This document shows positions 40,425 through 55,446 of a stretch of 64,000 nt of DNA, one piece after another. Below the pieces are notes generated by a model. It ran no database searches. It saw nothing but the letters and a program-made list of their open reading frames with translations, and was not told where the DNA came from. Within the stretch, counting starts at the first letter, position 1. Every line of letters begins with the position of its first letter. The position numbers and the translations under genes were made by a program. Source of the DNA: Sorangium aterium (GTDB taxonomy: Bacteria; Myxococcota_A; Polyangia; Polyangiales; Polyangiaceae); NCBI RefSeq assembly GCF_028368935.1, contig NZ_JAQNDK010000002.1, positions 1,116,001-1,180,000 on the forward strand, written 5' to 3'.

Positions 40425-40874
40425 CTACATCTCCGCGATCTTGTTGAGATCCGATTGCTTCATGTCATCCCGGATGTCGTCCGGGGTGTTCTCTTTCTTG
40501 TCGTCGCCGGACGAGACGACATGGATATCGTTGTTCTCGTCACACTTGATCTTGTACGGCTGGCCCCAGGGATCGTCGATCTTGTTGCCGTCGATCTGCT
40601 TCGCGCTGACCAGCGCCTGGATCGTCGGGCACCCTTCGCCGCCCGCCCCGAGCTGCTGGTACTGCTCGGCGGCGGTCTTGATGACCGTCGCCCCGGTATA
40701 GGCGCTCTTGACGCGCGACTGCTTGAGCTTCGGCCACACCACGAGCGTGGCGCCGCCGGCGATGATCGCCATGATCGTCACGACGATGAGCACCTCGACC
40801 AGGGTCACGCCCCGCGAGAGCTTCCGGCTCAGCCGTCGAATCCTTCTTGCGCTGCTTGCTCTGTTCGTCTCCAT
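40425..40874 (-). CDS. gspG: Type II secretion major pseudopilin GspG
   Basis: The 149-aa major pseudopilin has a basic leader, then SRG|VTLVEVLIVVTIMAIIAGGA at about residues 20-40. The C-terminus has DDPWGQPYKIKCDENNDIHVVSSGDD, the GspG DPWG block and a calcium-loop-like region. It forms the shaft of the pseudopilus. It starts 3 bp after a second GspG-like gene that lacks a prepilin signal. Confidence 0.93.
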   Translation of the reverse strand: METNRASSARRIRRLSRKLSRGVTLVEVLIVVTIMAIIAGGATLVVWPKLKQSRVKSAYTGATVIKTAAEQYQQLGAGGEGCPTIQALVSAKQIDGNKIDDPWGQPYKIKCDENNDIHVVSSGDDKKENTPDDIRDDMKQSDLNKIAEM

Positions 40875-40877
40875 CTC

Positions 40878-41291
40878 TCACTCCACCCTGTCAAGGCCGC
40901 CTATTTCGCCGTCCGGCCCGTCGCTCATGAGATCGTATCCGTCCGGATCCTTCCTTCCAGGGCAGGTGAGCCGGAGCGGCCTGCCCCACGCGTCGACCGG
41001 GTCGATCGCGAGGTATCCCTCGCGCTTCAGCTCTTCCAGGGAACCCGGGCACCGCCGCTCGTGATCGGCGCGGTACAGGGTGATCGCCCCGTGGACCACG
41101 GACAACGTCGCGCGGGTCGAGCGAATTCCCACGAGCCGCCGCTCGCGCGCGCCGAGGAGCAGCAGGAGGATCACCATCGCGAGGCCGGCGGCGAAGGGCC
41201 TCGCCCGCGCCATGCCGGTCCGCCGGAAGAGCCCGCCGCCGCGCTCCCAGGGGAAGAAGATCGTGCTCTCTCGCTGCCTGCGCCGCCCCAT
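40878..41291 (-). CDS. GspG-like protein without prepilin cleavage motif
   Basis: The ATG at 41289-41291 is preceded by TAGGTGG, and the protein has 137 aa. A plain signal-anchor helix (FAAGLAMVILLLLLGA) replaces the prepilin leader; no G/FTLxE motif is present. The C-terminus is nevertheless clearly GspG-like (AIDPVDAWGRPLRLTCPG and DGYDLMSDGPDGEIGG), with the acidic calcium-loop pattern more complete than in the neighbouring gspG. It lies between gspF and gspG, 3-6 bp from each. It could be a pseudopilus accessory protein or a diverged pseudopilin that is not processed. Confidence 0.75.
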   Translation of the reverse strand: MGRRRQRESTIFFPWERGGGLFRRTGMARARPFAAGLAMVILLLLLGARERRLVGIRSTRATLSVVHGAITLYRADHERRCPGSLEELKREGYLAIDPVDAWGRPLRLTCPGRKDPDGYDLMSDGPDGEIGGLDRVE

Positions 41292-41297
41292 AGCCAC

Positions 41298-42524
41298 CTA
41301 CCCGACGAAGCTCGACATCTGGATGAGCGGCATGAGGATGGATATCGCGATGAACGCGACCGCGCCGCCCATGATGACGATCATGAGCGGCTCGAGCAGG
41401 CTCGTGAGCACCTGGACGCGGGTCTCCACGGCGGAGTCGTAGGCGTTGGCCACGTTCTCCAGCATCGCCTCCAGCTGCCCGCTCCTCTCGCCGATGGCGA
41501 TCATGTGGGTGACGATCGGCGGGAACCGGCCGCTCCGCTTCAGCGGCTCGGCGATGCTCTGGCCCTCGCGGATCGACGCGATTGCGTCGACGATGACCTT
41601 CTCCAGGGCGGCGTTGCCGAGCACGCTCCGGACGATGTCCATCGCGCTGAGGAGCGCGACGCCCGACGACAGCAGGGTCGCGAGGGTCCGCGCGAAGCGC
41701 GCGATGGACAGCATCTGGATGAGCTTGCCGAAGATGGGCGCCCGCAGCACGAACGTGTCCCAAGAGAGGCGGCCCTTCGGCGTCCGCACCCAGCGGCGGA
41801 ACCCGTACACCGCGCCCACGATCGCGAGCAGGACGAGCCACCAGTAGCTCGAGGCGAACGCCGACGTGCCGATGAGCGCCGCCGTGTACCAGGGCAGCGC
41901 CTGGTCCATGGAGGCGAAGATGCCTGTCACGTTCGGCACGACCGCGACCATGAGGACCGAGATGAGCCCGATGCCGATGAGCGCCATCAGCGCGGGGTAG
42001 GCGAGGGCGGCGGTCACCTTGCCGACGAGCTTCGCCTGGTTCTCCATGAAGGTGGTCAGGCGGGTCAGCACGCCCTCGAGCGTGCCGGACGCCTCGCCGG
42101 CGCGCACCATGCTCACGTAGAGCGGCGGGAAGACCGAGGGGTGCGCCTCGAGCGCCTTGGCGAAGCTCGTGCCTTCGCGCACCTGCTCGCGCACCTGCGT
42201 GAGCACCTTCTTCAGCGACTCCTTCTCGACCTGCTCGATGAGCGCGTTGAGCGACTCGAAGAGCGGGATGCCGGCGCCGATGAGCGTCGCGAGCTGGCGG
42301 GTCATCACGGCGATGTCCGACGTCGAGGGGCGGCCCGCGAAGGCGAAGATCTTGATATCGCGCTTCGCCTTCGCCTTCGCGGCCTGCTCCTCGGTCGCGC
42401 CGGTGAGCATGATGCCGTCCTTGCGCAGGGCGACCCGGAGGGCCTTCGCGTTCTCCGCGTCGCGGACCCCTTTGACCGGCTTTCCGGTGCCGACGAGGAT
42501 GCCTTTGTATTCGAATACCGCCAC
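41298..42524 (-). CDS. gspF: Type II secretion inner-membrane platform protein GspF
   Basis: The GTG start (42522-42524), with AGGGAAGG just upstream, gives 408 aa, the normal length. The frame is open further upstream through gspE but in the wrong phase. Two GspF domains are visible: FAGRPSTSDIAVMTRQLATLIGAGIPLFESL near 67 and FGKLIQMLSIARFARTLATLLSSGVALLSAM near 270. Membrane helices lie near 165-190, 210-240 and at the C-terminus (LEPLMIVIMGGAVAFIAISILMPL). It is the polytopic assembly platform. Confidence 0.95.
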   Translation of the reverse strand: MAVFEYKGILVGTGKPVKGVRDAENAKALRVALRKDGIMLTGATEEQAAKAKAKRDIKIFAFAGRPSTSDIAVMTRQLATLIGAGIPLFESLNALIEQVEKESLKKVLTQVREQVREGTSFAKALEAHPSVFPPLYVSMVRAGEASGTLEGVLTRLTTFMENQAKLVGKVTAALAYPALMALIGIGLISVLMVAVVPNVTGIFASMDQALPWYTAALIGTSAFASSYWWLVLLAIVGAVYGFRRWVRTPKGRLSWDTFVLRAPIFGKLIQMLSIARFARTLATLLSSGVALLSAMDIVRSVLGNAALEKVIVDAIASIREGQSIAEPLKRSGRFPPIVTHMIAIGERSGQLEAMLENVANAYDSAVETRVQVLTSLLEPLMIVIMGGAVAFIAISILMPLIQMSSFVG

Positions 42525-42532
42525 GGCCTTCC

Positions 42533-44311
42533 CTACTCGTCGACGATGACGTCTTCCTGCGTCGCCGCGAGGACCTCCTCGACGGTGGTGATGCCCTTGA
42601 GCACCTTGCGCGCCCCGTCGTCCCGGAGCGTATCCATCCCCTGGGAGATGGCGACCCGCTTGATGGTCTGCGCGTCCGCGCTCTTCAGGATGTGCGGACC
42701 CACGGCGTCGTCGATGACCATCTGCTCGTAGATGCCCCGCCGGCCGATGAAGCCCTTCTGGTTGCAGGCGTCGCAGCCCCCGGGCTTGTAGAACACGGCC
42801 CGATCGATGTCCTGCCCGATGTAGTCGTATTTCTGTCCGTGCACGCTGTAGCGGGCCGAGACCTTCCGCCGCGCCTTCCAGGCGAGCCGGTCCTCGTCGA
42901 GGCCGAGCTGCTGCAGCTCGTAGTCGGAGGGCCGGTAGGGGACCTTGCACGCCGGGCAGAGCAGGCGCACGAGGCGCTGGGCGAGGATGCCGATCACGCT
43001 GCTCCGCACGAGGAAGGGCTCGATCTCCATCTCGACGAGGCGGGTCACCGCGCTGGCCGCGTCGTTCGTGTGGAGGGTCGAGAGCACCAGGTGGCCGGTG
43101 AGCGACGCGTGGATGGCGATCTCTGCGGTCTCCTTGTCGCGGATCTCGCCGACCATGATCACGTCCGGATCCTGGCGGAGGAACGCGCGGAGCGCCGAGG
43201 CGAAGGTGAGCCCGATCCCGGGGTGGACGTGGATCTGGTGGATGCCGCCGATCTCGTACTCGACCGGGTCCTCGGCCGTGAGGATGTTCCGGCTGGGCTC
43301 GTTGATCCGGTTGAGGCAGGCGTAGAGCGTGGTCGTCTTGCCGCTGCCGGTCGGGCCGGTGACGAGGATGATGCCGTCCGGCCGCTGGATGAGCGCGTCC
43401 ATGATGGCGAACTCGCGCGGCGCGAAGCCGAGGTCGTCGAGCCCGAGCAGGACCGACGCCTTGTGCAGGATGCGCATCACGATCCGCTCGAAGCCGCGGC
43501 TCGTCGGCACGGTCGAGACGCGGATGTCGACGCTCTTGCCCGCGATCTTCAGCGTGATGCGGCCGTCCTGCGGGAGCCGCTTCTCGGCGATGTTGAGCGC
43601 CGCCATGATCTTCACGCGGGCGATGATCGGCGCCATGAACTGCTTCGAGGCGCGCTTCGCGACGTAGAGCTCGCCGTCGATCCGGTAGCGGACGACGACG
43701 TCGCGCTCCTCGGGCTCGATGTGGATGTCGCTCGCCCGCTCGCGGACCGCCTGCGCGAACAGGCCGTTGACCCAGGCGATGATCGGGGCGTCGTCGTCCG
43801 AGTCGATGATGTCGACGAGGTTGTCCTCCTCGAGCGCCGTGTCGCCCTCGAGCTTCGCGCCGCCGTCCTCCTTGCGCTCCCAGATGCGGTTGATCGCGTT
43901 CAGCACGACGTCGCTCGTGGCGACCGCGATCTCGACGGGCTTGCCGAACAGCGCCCGCACGTCGTCGATCGCCGTCGTGTCGAGGGGGTCGGCGACGGCG
44001 CAGTAGACGACCCCGTCGTGCTCGGCGAGCGGCAGGATCTTGTGCTGCTTGGCGTACGTGATCGGCACCCGGCTCGCGAGATCGAGCGGCACCGCGTCGA
44101 TGTCGATGCGCGGGAGGAGGCCGACCTCGCACTCCTCCGCGAGCGCCTTGGCGATGCTCGCCTCGTCGGCGATGTTGGACGAGACGATGAGGTCCGCGAG
44201 CGGCTGACCGCGCTCGCGGACGGTGTCGTAGAGCGGCACCAGCCGCTCCGCGGGGACGACGCCCCGCCGGATCAGGATCTCGCCGAGGTACTGCTGCTGC
44301 TGCAGGCTCAT
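42533..44311 (-). CDS. gspE: Type II secretion ATPase GspE
   Basis: The ATG at 44309-44311 overlaps the gspD stop (ATGA); length is 592 aa. An N-terminal MshEN/GspE domain (LGEILIRRGVV, CAVADPLDTTAIDDVRALFG) binds GspL. The AAA motor has Walker A GPTGSGKTTT, an Asp box (TAEDPVEYEI), Walker B-type RAFLRQDPDVIMVGEIRD and a His box (TGHLVLSTLHTNDA). A four-Cys zinc loop is present (LLCPACK ... GGCDACNQKG). It powers pseudopilus assembly. The 8-bp gap to gspF suggests coupled expression. Confidence 0.96.
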   Translation of the reverse strand: MSLQQQQYLGEILIRRGVVPAERLVPLYDTVRERGQPLADLIVSSNIADEASIAKALAEECEVGLLPRIDIDAVPLDLASRVPITYAKQHKILPLAEHDGVVYCAVADPLDTTAIDDVRALFGKPVEIAVATSDVVLNAINRIWERKEDGGAKLEGDTALEEDNLVDIIDSDDDAPIIAWVNGLFAQAVRERASDIHIEPEERDVVVRYRIDGELYVAKRASKQFMAPIIARVKIMAALNIAEKRLPQDGRITLKIAGKSVDIRVSTVPTSRGFERIVMRILHKASVLLGLDDLGFAPREFAIMDALIQRPDGIILVTGPTGSGKTTTLYACLNRINEPSRNILTAEDPVEYEIGGIHQIHVHPGIGLTFASALRAFLRQDPDVIMVGEIRDKETAEIAIHASLTGHLVLSTLHTNDAASAVTRLVEMEIEPFLVRSSVIGILAQRLVRLLCPACKVPYRPSDYELQQLGLDEDRLAWKARRKVSARYSVHGQKYDYIGQDIDRAVFYKPGGCDACNQKGFIGRRGIYEQMVIDDAVGPHILKSADAQTIKRVAISQGMDTLRDDGARKVLKGITTVEEVLAATQEDVIVDE

Positions 44312-46916
44312 TCCACGCGCTCCATCTGCCGTCCGCCCGGCGGCCGCCGCGTGGGCCGCGGCGGCGGGGCGCCGTTCGGCGGCGGCGGCAGCTGGGCCGG
44401 CTCGCCCTCCATGTCGACCATGCCGGGCTGCATATTCACCGCGCCGGTGGCCTTGCCGCCGAACGTCGGCAGGCCGACCGGGTCCACCGGCACGTGCTCG
44501 CGCGGCCCCTTCGGGCGCGCCTCCTCCTCGAGGCGCGCTCGCTCTTCCTCGGCCAGCATCGACTGGCGGATGTCCTCGAGGAGCCCGTTCGCGCGGCCGA
44601 AGTCGCGCGGCGGCTCCCACGCGGCGCTCTCGCTGAAGACGAAGTAACGGTCGATGAACTCCTGCCGCTCCTGCATCTTGCGCTCGAAGATGGTCCGGAG
44701 GTCGTCCTGGTCGCGGATCACGTAGGGCGTCAGCACGAGGAGGAGGTTCGTCTTCGTCTTCGTCTTGACCCGCTGCCGGAAGAGGAACCCGAGCACCGGG
44801 ATGTCGCCCAGCACGGGGATCTTCGTCTCCGAGGTGGTCATGCCGTCGCGCATGAGGCCGCCGATCACGACGGTCTGCTGGTCCCGGACGACGAGCGTTG
44901 TGCTCGCGGTGCGCTTGTTGATGGGGATCGCGCCGAGCGCGCCCTCGAGGGGGGCGCCCGCGTCGGAGATCTCCTCGGAGAGCTCCAGCCGCACCTGATC
45001 CGAGTCGTTGACGTGAGGGACGACCTTGATCTTCGTGCCGACGTCCTGGCGCGCGGCGGCGCCGCCGCCGAGGCCGCCGAGGCCGCCGAGCAGGCCGCCG
45101 AGCGCGCCGAGCCCGCCCGCCGCGCCCGCGCCGCCCGCCAGGCTCGCGAGCTGGTTGAGCCCGCCGCCGCCCACGTTGGTCTGCAGCGGGATGTTCTGGC
45201 CGATCGAGATCTCGGCCGCCACGTTGTCGGTCGCGAGGATGTGCGGCGTCGCGAGGACGTTGGAGTCGCCGTCCTGGGCCAGCGCGTGGAGGACGACGCC
45301 GAACGCGGGGATCGAGATGCCCGTCCCGAGGATGTTGTTCGAGCCCGTGATCGCGGTCCCTTGACGCCCAGCGCGAGCGCGCCGAGCTGCGCCGGCAGGC
45401 CGATGACGGACTGGCGGATGTTGTTGCCGCCGTAGACGACGCTGTCGTCGGGGTTGAGGCCGTCGAACGGCGCGCCGGCGTGGTAGCCGATGCCGAAATC
45501 GAGCGAGCGGCTGACGTTCACGTCCATGATCACGGCCTCGATGAACACCTGCCGCCGGGGCTCGTCGAGCTGGTCGATCACGGTGCGCAGCTGGGCGTAG
45601 TCGTGGGGTGACGACGTGATGAGGAGCTTGTTGCTCGCCTCGTCGCAGGTGACCTTGACCTGCCCCTCGAAGATGTCGTCGGTCGAGCCCGGCACCGCCT
45701 GGGCGGCGCGCGCGCCCGGCCTGCCGCCGACGGCCGCTCCGCCCCCGCCCGCTCCGCCGCCGAGGATCTGGTTCAGCGTCGCCGACAGCTCCTTGCAGCC
45801 GGCGTGCTGGAGCGACAGCACGTGGACCTGCCCCTCGCCCGTCTGCGGCACGTCGAGGCGCTTCAGGATGCCGAGGACGCGCAGGTAGTCCGGCTCGGTC
45901 GCGGTGATGACGAGGGAGTTGGTCCTGTCGTCCGCGATGATGCGGGCGCCGGTGCCGCCGGCGCCGCCCCTGCCGGGCCTGCCGCCGCCCGCCCCGGCCC
46001 TGCTCGGGTCGACGATCTCGTTCAGCTTGGTCGCGACCTCCGCCGCGGAGCCGTAATGAACGGGCTGCACCCAGAGCTGATCGCCGGCGCCGCCGACGTC
46101 GATCTCCTCGACGATCCGGAGCATGCGCTGGATGTTCGACCCGGTGTCCGTGATGATGAGCAGGTTGCCGGGCGGGTAGACGGTGACGTCGCCGTCCTTC
46201 GATTTGAACTTGCTCAGGACGCCGCCCGCCTCGTTGGCGTCGATATGCGACAGCCGGTACATGCGGGTGACGAACCGGTCCTCCGCGGGCACGGGCGTGG
46301 CGGCCCCGAACACGGGCGTCGTCTCGGACACCGCGCCTGGCGTCTCCACGATCTTGAGGAAGCGGCCGTGGGGGATGACGGTGAGATCGTTCGAGGCGAG
46401 GATCGACAGGAACGCGCTGTACGCCTCGGCGACGGTCACCTTCTCCGGCGCGTACACCGTGGCCTTGATCTGCCGGAGCTTGCCGCCGTAGATGAAGCGG
46501 CGCCCGGTGATGTTGCTGATGGCCTTCACGAGCTCGGGGAGGTCGGCCTCGTCGAGGTTGAAGCTGACCTTGTAGCCGCCGGGCTTCGGCTTGAACTCGA
46601 TCTCCTGGACCCCTTGCTTGACCGCGGCGAGCGGGTCGTCGCCGGCGTCGCCCGGAGCGCCTGCCGCGGGCGCGGCTGCGCCCGGCGCGCCGGCGGGTGG
46701 GGCGCCTCCGGCCGGCGCGGCCGGCGCGCCCGGCGCAGGCGCGGGGCGGGCGGGCGCCGGCGGGACCTGGCCGGGGGTCCGCAGCACGGGGGCGCCGCGG
46801 TTCGCGGGCTGCGCTGCGGCGGGCGGCGCCGCGGCGGCGAGCACGAGCGCCGCCACCGGCGCGGCGAGGAGCCTCCTCCGGAGGCAGCAGGATCGCTCGA
46901 GGGTCGTCATCACCAT
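44308..46916 (-). CDS. gspD: Type II secretion secretin GspD, interrupted by an apparent -1 frameshift
   Basis: The outer-membrane secretin is split across two frames. The first part (46916 to about 45358) has a signal peptide (LLAAPVAALVLAAAAPPAAA), a Pro/Ala-rich stretch, N0 (VSFNLDEADLPELVKAISNITGR) and the N1-N3 domains, up to GVKG. The second part runs in another frame from about 45357 to 44308: TAITGSNNILGTGI, then the secretin core (NIPLQTNVGGGG), a Gly/Leu-rich insert, TTLVVRDQQTVVIGGLMRDG and VPVLGFLFR-type end motifs. One extra G in the GGG at 45358-45360 would restore one 869-aa frame. The reading downstream of the shift in the first frame is Arg/Ser-rich nonsense to 44865. Either a sequence error or a real mutation; see findings. 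Confidence 0.88.
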
Positions 46917-46966: not shown

Positions 46967-47278
46967 TCAGTCAGCGTTCGGCGCGCTCTCGCGCGCGGCC
47001 GGCGAGGGGGGCCGCGGCCGCTTCGAGCGGGAGGTCTTGCCCAGGGCGGTCTTGGTCGCGCCGGCGGCGGCCTCGCTGTCGGCCTCCTCCGTCGTGTCCG
47101 CCGCGGACTCCTTGTCGTGGGACGTCTCGTGGGGCGGCAGGACGGCCCTGGCGACCGACACGAGGACGAGGCTCATGACCCCGACGAACGTGAGGGAGCC
47201 GAGGACGAACGTGCCGATCACCATCAGCGTCCGCCGGAGCAGGCTCCCCTCGTTCAGCGTCCCTATCCATCGCGCCAT
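46967..47278 (-). CDS. Small single-pass membrane protein between gspC and gspD
   Basis: The 103-aa protein starts MARWIGTLNEGSLLRR and has one long transmembrane helix (TLMVIGTFVLGSLTFVGVMSLVLVSVARAVL, about residues 17-47), then an Ala/Glu/Ser-rich and finally basic tail. It lies 41 bp after gspC and 50 bp before gspD, in the same direction. No standard Gsp family fits. A pilotin or assembly partner of the secretin is possible by position, but there is no lipobox. The composition is balanced enough to be a real gene. Confidence 0.65.
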   Translation of the reverse strand: MARWIGTLNEGSLLRRTLMVIGTFVLGSLTFVGVMSLVLVSVARAVLPPHETSHDKESAADTTEEADSEAAAGATKTALGKTSRSKRPRPPSPAARESAPNAD

Positions 47279-47319: not shown

Positions 47320-48300
47320 TCACTTGATGTTGAAGTCGATGTTCATCGGCTTGCCCTTGCGGTTGATGCTCACCGTGAGCCGGTCCGCCGTCCGGAGCCG
47401 CGCGTAGGCCTCGAGGGCCTTCTGCGGATCGCTCATCTCAAACCCGTTGATGCTGGACAGCCGATCTCCGTTCTCCAGCCCGAGCGTCCCCAGCAGAGAG
47501 TCCGGGCGAATCCCGAAGAGACGGATGCCCACCACCTTGTCTCCCTCCTTCTCGGGGACGATGCGCGCGGAGCGCATCAGCTCGCCCTGGTTCTCCAGGA
47601 TGTGGTCGACGGCGCTGCGCTCCACGTTGAACTCCGTCTCGCTCACGCGCTGGATCTTCGAGGCGATCTCCGGCGGGATCTTCTTGCCGGCGCGGGCGGG
47701 GGGCTTCGAGGCCGCGCCCGTCGACGTCGTCGGGGGCGCCGGCGCCGGCGCGGCGCTGGCGCGGGCGACGGCGCGGCTGCCAACGATGGCCTGGCACCGC
47801 GAGCTGCCGGACGTCAGCCAGACCCGATCCCACCCCACGTAGTAAACGGTCTGCCCGCTGATCTCATCCCCCTGCCGCCGCAAGATCGCCTTGCCGTCCG
47901 AGCCGGTCATGGCCGCGAACGACCACGCGGGATCGTCGGCCTGCGTGATGAGGAGGACGCGGGCGCCGTCGCAGGACGGGTCCGCGTACGGGTCCTTGTT
48001 GGGCAGCTCGTGCTGGACGGTCGGGAGCTCGACGGGCTTGCCGTCGAGCGGCCCCGTCACCGAGTCGAACGGGTTGCGCGAGAGGATCGCCGCGGCGCTC
48101 GTCGTGTGGTCCGTGCTGCTCGCGGTCGGCCCGAACGACGCCGGGCGCGTCGGATGGCTGGGCGGCGCCGGCGGGGCGTCGATCGCGACGCTGGAGACCA
48201 CGAGCTGACCCATGCCCGACGCCTGGAAGTAGGCGGCGAGCGCGATCAGTGCGCCCAGCACCCAGGGGAAATACCGCTTCAGGATCGCGTCGATGCCCAT
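47320..48300 (-). CDS. gspC: Type II secretion inner-membrane protein GspC with PDZ domain
   Basis: The 326-aa protein has an N-terminal membrane anchor (YFPWVLGALIALAAYFQASG), a homology region at about 65-160 (AAAILSRNPFDSVTGPL; DPAWSFAAM; YYVGWDRVWL), a Pro/Ala linker and a C-terminal PDZ-like domain (GIRLFGIRPDSLLGTLGLENGDRLSSINGFEMSDPQKALEAYARLR). It connects the platform to the secretin. It is the first structural gene of the operon, preceded by a 204-bp spacer. GAGGAGGA, about 10 bp upstream of the ATG, is its ribosome site. Confidence 0.92.
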   Translation of the reverse strand: MGIDAILKRYFPWVLGALIALAAYFQASGMGQLVVSSVAIDAPPAPPSHPTRPASFGPTASSTDHTTSAAAILSRNPFDSVTGPLDGKPVELPTVQHELPNKDPYADPSCDGARVLLITQADDPAWSFAAMTGSDGKAILRRQGDEISGQTVYYVGWDRVWLTSGSSRCQAIVGSRAVARASAAPAPAPPTTSTGAASKPPARAGKKIPPEIASKIQRVSETEFNVERSAVDHILENQGELMRSARIVPEKEGDKVVGIRLFGIRPDSLLGTLGLENGDRLSSINGFEMSDPQKALEAYARLRTADRLTVSINRKGKPMNIDFNIK

Positions 48301-54429: not shown

Positions 54430-55446
54430 TCAGGCCGCGTCAGGCCGCGTCGCCGCTGCCGCGCTCGACGACAGGCGCGCTCGGAGATACGCGCCCAGCG
54501 CGTCCGTGCCCCGCGCGCCCTCCGGGTGGAAGTCGGCCAGCACCGGCCCGTTGTGGGGCATGTCCCGCAGCACGTCGAGCGTGACGTCGACGCCCGCCTC
54601 GCGGGCGCGCCGCGCGAGCTCCTGGCCCTCGTCGTGGAGGCGCTCGGCGTCGCCGACCTGGATGAACAGCGAGGCCAGCCCCTCCAGACGCGCGTGGAGC
54701 GGTGACAGCCGGGGATCGTCCAGCGGGGTCGCGCCCGCGAAATCGCGCGCCTGGCGCAGGAGACCCTCCCGGGTGCCGTAATCGGTCGAGTCGTTCGCGA
54801 TCGCCGAGGCGCTGCTCGCGGTGAGGTCGAGCCAGGGAGAGATGAGCGCGGCGCAGCGCGCCTGCGCGCCGCGGTCGCGCTGCGCGAGCTGCGTGACGAG
54901 CGCGAGGTTGCCGCCGGCGGAGTCGCCGGCGAGCGCGAGCTCCCCCGGCGCATGGCCGCGCTCGACCAGCGCGTCAAAGGCGGCGAGCGCGTCCTCGAGC
55001 TGCGCTGGATAGCGGTGCTCCGGCGCGAGCCGGTAGTCGATGCCCACGACGCGGGCGCCGCTCGCCAGCGCCAGCCGCGCCATGAGGTCCGCGTGGGTCC
55101 TCGTGGAGCCGAACAGGTACGAGCCGCCGTGGAGGTAGAGGACGACGCCACGCGACGCCGCGCCAGGAGGCTCGAACCAGACCGCGGGGACGCCCTTCAA
55201 GGTGTCGTCCGTGCGCTTCACGCGCCGGACGGCCTTCTGGGAGTACGGGCGCGCGTCGAGCTCGGCCCTGACGTCCGGGTAGGGCCGGTCGAGCACGTAG
55301 GCGAAATCGCGGCGGAGAAAGCGGACCACCCACTCGAAGCCGAAGCCCCAGCTCGGGCGCGCGGGCCCCCGGCGGGCGCGTTCCGTCGTGGTCTCCACGA
55401 AGGCGAGGCCGAACATCTTCATCAGCCGAAGCATCATGGCGGGCAT
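54430..55446 (-). CDS. Alpha/beta hydrolase of the hormone-sensitive-lipase family
   Basis: The 338-aa esterase has the HSL signatures: oxyanion-hole HGG in LYLHGGSYLFGS (106-108), the nucleophile in LAGDSAGGNLAL (S176) and DYRLAPEHRYPA near 137. The acid residue is in VQVGD-like LFIQVGDAERLHDE, and the His in DMPHNGPV. It should hydrolyse short-chain esters, possibly lipids or xenobiotic esters. An N-terminal hydrophobic stretch may associate with membrane. It is 124 bp downstream of a lipoprotein gene, with three 19-bp repeats between them. Confidence 0.92.
   Translation of the reverse strand: MPAMMLRLMKMFGLAFVETTTERARRGPARPSWGFGFEWVVRFLRRDFAYVLDRPYPDVRAELDARPYSQKAVRRVKRTDDTLKGVPAVWFEPPGAASRGVVLYLHGGSYLFGSTRTHADLMARLALASGARVVGIDYRLAPEHRYPAQLEDALAAFDALVERGHAPGELALAGDSAGGNLALVTQLAQRDRGAQARCAALISPWLDLTASSASAIANDSTDYGTREGLLRQARDFAGATPLDDPRLSPLHARLEGLASLFIQVGDAERLHDEGQELARRAREAGVDVTLDVLRDMPHNGPVLADFHPEGARGTDALGAYLRARLSSSAAAATRPDAA

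Follow-up and report, generated by a model that had tools for sequence, protein, structure and literature searches.

On its minus strand, the window analysed here, a stretch of 64,000 nucleotides of the Sorangium aterium genome at G000:C2:1116001–1180000, carries a cluster of type II secretion genes in the order gspC-D-E-F-G-H-I-J-K-L-M-N. The gene for the secretin, gspD, lies between gspC (47320–48300, above the cut-off of the NF041515 GspC_delta model) and gspE (42533–44311, above the cut-off of TIGR02533, its start codon picked by eye). These are followed by gspF (41298–42530, above the Pfam cut-off for T2SSF, with a provisional 5′ limit), by a gene for a GspG-like pseudopilin (40425–40874) and, between 33387 and 40399, by open frames for GspH, I, J, K, L, M and N. 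In this last group, GspN alone exceeds its own NCBIfam cut-off, as do GspC and GspE elsewhere in the cluster; the remaining matches are weaker, those to pseudopilins G to K and to GspM falling under the NCBIfam cut-offs, and the position of GspL is occupied by a PilM-like protein. All of these genes (C, E, F, G, H, I, J, K, the L-like gene, M and N) are open, and the statement of an earlier note on this DNA that the other gsp genes are intact thus holds as far as tested. A 103-residue open frame at 46967–47278, between gspC and gspD, has no Pfam match, and a second gene with a T2SSG domain (40878–41297) adjoins gspG.

A secretin gene divided between two frames

The gspD gene starts with an ATG at 46916, and its first frame is free of stops down to 44865, giving 683 residues. 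Similarity to GspD, however, is limited to the first 518 codons of this frame (46916–45363), which encode the leader, the N0 domain and the Secretin_N repeats (N1–N3). The barrel core of the secretin and the C-terminal tail are encoded in the −1 frame, from the G triplet at 45360–45358 to the stop at 44308. Pfam accordingly places N0 and Secretin_N in the upstream frame and Secretin (142.6 bits) in the downstream frame, and the GspD model TIGR02517 is matched over its positions 1–363 upstream and 406–599 downstream. With the two frames combined, N0, N1–N3 and Secretin follow each other in the order typical of GspD. The gene resembles other type II secretins in this domain order, in its place within the gsp gene order and in having intact orthologues in Sorangium. 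It differs from them in that it lacks a single unbroken coding frame, and neither part by itself (273.3 and 198.1 bits) reaches the 351.35 bits that the model requires.

Several observations place the break at 45357–45361. A hidden Markov model of reading frames, trained on the sequence itself, changes frame without prompting at 45357–45359 in several runs. When the DNA was aligned with that of four Sorangium orthologues (So ceGT47, So0157-2, a metagenome-assembled genome and So ce26), the window proved to be one column shorter than all four at this very place. The five rows of the alignment contain 48 gaps, 47 of which are multiples of three, the one-column gap of the window being the only exception. 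GC content by codon position is 0.71/0.51/0.96 upstream and 0.72/0.48/0.97 downstream in the −1 frame (GC3 of 0.972), whereas in the unshifted continuation past the break (44865–45360) it is 0.50/0.98/0.73 (more precisely 0.497/0.976/0.727), as in a shadow frame. The break is not a chance overlap of two frames. The earlier note had described one frame from 46916 followed by a secretin core in the −1 frame down to 44308, and open reading frames, profiles, frame model and alignment all agree with that description; a recount also returned the same length, 2609 bases from start to stop. In the rest of the window, the later and better trained runs of the frame model flagged no further break. A call at 55445 in the first run was rejected, as an ATG gene start lies at 55446 and the call was lost with more training data.

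Intact relatives and constraint on both halves

At this locus the closest relatives of the window are other Sorangium, with 82–87% protein identity over the best segment. Related loci numbered 73, one of which (L072) has only one half of the gene. In 71 of the 72 with both halves, these share a frame that no stop interrupts. The sole exception, a contig of a Labilithrix metagenome-assembled genome (L076), has a gspD break of its own upstream of the window's site and near the start of the contig (L076:100–300). At the level of the genus, four of six genomes give a full-length GspD match, but these are apparently the genomes already used in the alignment and hence not independent of it. The other two are the window's own genome and a draft of 1270 contigs (G007) with only a piece of gspD; the latter was dismissed as uninformative, the piece running past the end of its stretch. 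A search of this draft with the junction DNA, in which 40 of 649 candidates were scored, turned up nothing but short stretches of similarity to the query's far end.

If the downstream part had ceased to be translated long ago, its constraint might be expected to have relaxed. Between the window and the four relatives, dN/dS is 0.275–0.336 for the upstream part and 0.317–0.426 for the downstream part; among the relatives themselves, the corresponding ranges are 0.271–0.414 and 0.299–0.464. The downstream values of the window are inside the relatives' own range, and there is thus no relaxation of the part that follows the break. Since this part is constrained as in the intact relatives, the break is either very recent or not real. 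Neither relaxed constraint nor additional lesions, as a pseudogene of some age would have, were found in gspD by the alignment and dN/dS, and an old pseudogene was rejected for both reasons. A backup copy was likewise discarded: PilQ was the only other secretin found in a search of the genome, so that no second GspD is seen as a possible replacement.

Candidate frame breaks elsewhere in the assembly

The genome is assembled into 7 contigs of between 0.58 and 4.03 Mb, 13.47 Mb in all, which suggests that long reads were used. With a stricter filter, the frame model yielded 15 candidate breaks (gspD included) in 1.65 Mb of this genome, compared with 4 in 0.40 Mb of So ce26; with a looser filter, it yielded 9 in 0.864 Mb and 10 in 0.40 Mb, respectively. 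These raw rates are no higher than in So ce26, and the assembly is therefore not shown to be unusually poor relative to a finished relative. Part of the candidates are false breaks. Of the 15, 10 are one base short and 5 one base long. Pfam searches of the other 14 covered 20 of 28 halves (both halves in nine cases, one in two and none in three), and the same family was present on both sides in a single candidate only, a gene with RHS repeats (L093), the remainder being uninformative or merely compatible with a break. The other candidates lie in L084, L122, L125, L131, L134 (two), L146, L150, L158, L159, L160 and L165; besides RHS repeats, the candidate genes include ones with M1 peptidase, alpha-2-macroglobulin, PhyH and LD-carboxypeptidase domains, and some of the calls may be ordinary gene ends.

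Homology offers a stricter criterion. When 553 protein segments of So ce26 were searched for in 1.65 Mb of this genome, 189 were placed and two of these, gspD and one other, meet a frame break; in the reverse direction 187 of 1119 segments were placed, with no breaks. With two breaks on one side and none on the other, the counts are too small to distinguish the two genomes. The same approach with So0157-2 placed at most 10 segments, a number too low to be informative, and revealed no breaks. The second of the two broken genes, some 95 kb from gspD on the same contig, is a conserved DUF2330-like gene interrupted at L176:16653 (C2:1256653). Like gspD, it lacks one base at a run of G, and its copy in So ce26 is open. 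The gene, assigned to its family from the N-terminal part, spans L176:16274–18108 (G000:C2:1256274–1258108).

Origin of the break

Taken together, the open frame in 71 of 72 relatives, the constraint on the 3′ part, the lack of a slippery heptamer or unusual RNA structure and the similar lesion in a second gene point to an indel or a very recent mutation and not to recoding. In our view the deposited sequence probably contains a one-base indel here, a base having been dropped from a short G run during sequencing or assembly. In the living strain gspD is most likely intact and type II secretion of the ordinary kind. The earlier note had preferred an error to a secretion defect or ribosomal slippage, and the open relatives, the 3′ constraint, the missing recoding signal and the second gene lend support to that preference. 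The break, its size, the open relatives and the downstream constraint were observed directly, whereas a technical cause, and the use of long reads for the assembly, are what we infer as most likely. In favor of it, the one-column shortfall stands alone among the 48 gaps, the other genes of the cluster are open and no second GspD was found. On the other hand, the G run at the site is short, with no long homopolymer, and candidate breaks in this genome go both ways. The predominant error of long reads is described as the short indel at homopolymers, through which genes can falsely appear frameshifted (PMC12007338). With its single-base difference in length, its short G run and its place in a conserved gene of a large-contig, GC-rich assembly, gspD resembles such genes, and the large contigs, the short G runs and the presence of just one lesion in a gene still under constraint are consistent with indels left over from long-read sequencing. 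The weights that we attach to this and the following explanations are judgements and not computed odds.

A true and very recent frameshift would leave the strain, perhaps a laboratory stock, with a protein of 683 residues with the periplasmic N domains but without the membrane barrel, and type II secretion would be lost. This is what the deposited sequence says when read literally. Moreover, candidate breaks are similarly frequent, by raw rate, in the finished relative, and some of them are thus presumably true. Selection can also favour mutants without type II secretion, as in Ralstonia solanacearum, where some phage-insensitive mutants are defective in it (PMC9765573). Nevertheless, the lesion is a single one and the constraint downstream of it is unrelaxed, the remaining cluster is open with no second GspD found to take over, and gspD is full length in the four other genomes of the genus where it is complete. 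We therefore regard a real mutation as less likely than an error, but as the main alternative to it.

Ribosomal −1 recoding, by which the gene as deposited would still yield a full-length GspD, appears highly improbable. In programmed −1 frameshifting of the dnaX type, known from bacteria, the slippery heptamer has the form X XXY YYZ. The gspD site has in common with such systems that the downstream frame is the −1 frame, which, moreover, is under constraint, and re-pairing in the P site from GGA to GGG would preserve a glycine codon, judging from the sequence. Unlike them, it is neither conserved nor marked by a slippery heptamer or an unusual structure. The zero-frame triplets are GTC AAG GGA CCG and, as the earlier note had remarked, AAG GGA is no classical heptamer. 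The 71 relatives do without a break and the last one, L076, is broken elsewhere. Among pseudoknot-free folds of the 86 nucleotides from the site, no stimulatory structure was found: this RNA is, if anything, a little less stable than its shuffled versions, 182 out of 200 of which do as well or better (z = +1.13). In addition, a dedicated signal could hardly have evolved since so recent a break. Heptamer, conservation and structure were thus all sought and none was found, and recoding was rejected as unlikely. In its specific form, that of a truly absent base with a one-base re-pairing at AAG GGA supplying some barrel-forming GspD, while most of the product would consist of the N domains only and could regulate secretin assembly, the idea is just as improbable. 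Titles and abstract openings in the literature searched yielded no recognisable report of a secretin with a frameshift or with recoding. The probability is slighter still that the locus encodes two separate proteins, one made of the N domains and the other an independently started secretin core. A GTG at 45222 does open 304 codons in the downstream frame, but by eye no Shine–Dalgarno-like sequence directly precedes it. It also falls within the first piece of the Secretin match (45175–45285), so that a start there would lose part of the domain, and 71 of 72 relatives have a single frame.

Nothing suggests a novel biological mechanism at gspD, and the finding itself is an ordinary one. Its significance is chiefly for annotation, since anyone scoring the genome as deposited would take its type II secretion system to be broken. 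A real break would make the strain a naturally occurring secretin mutant, from which one could learn how a Sorangium lives without type II secretion.
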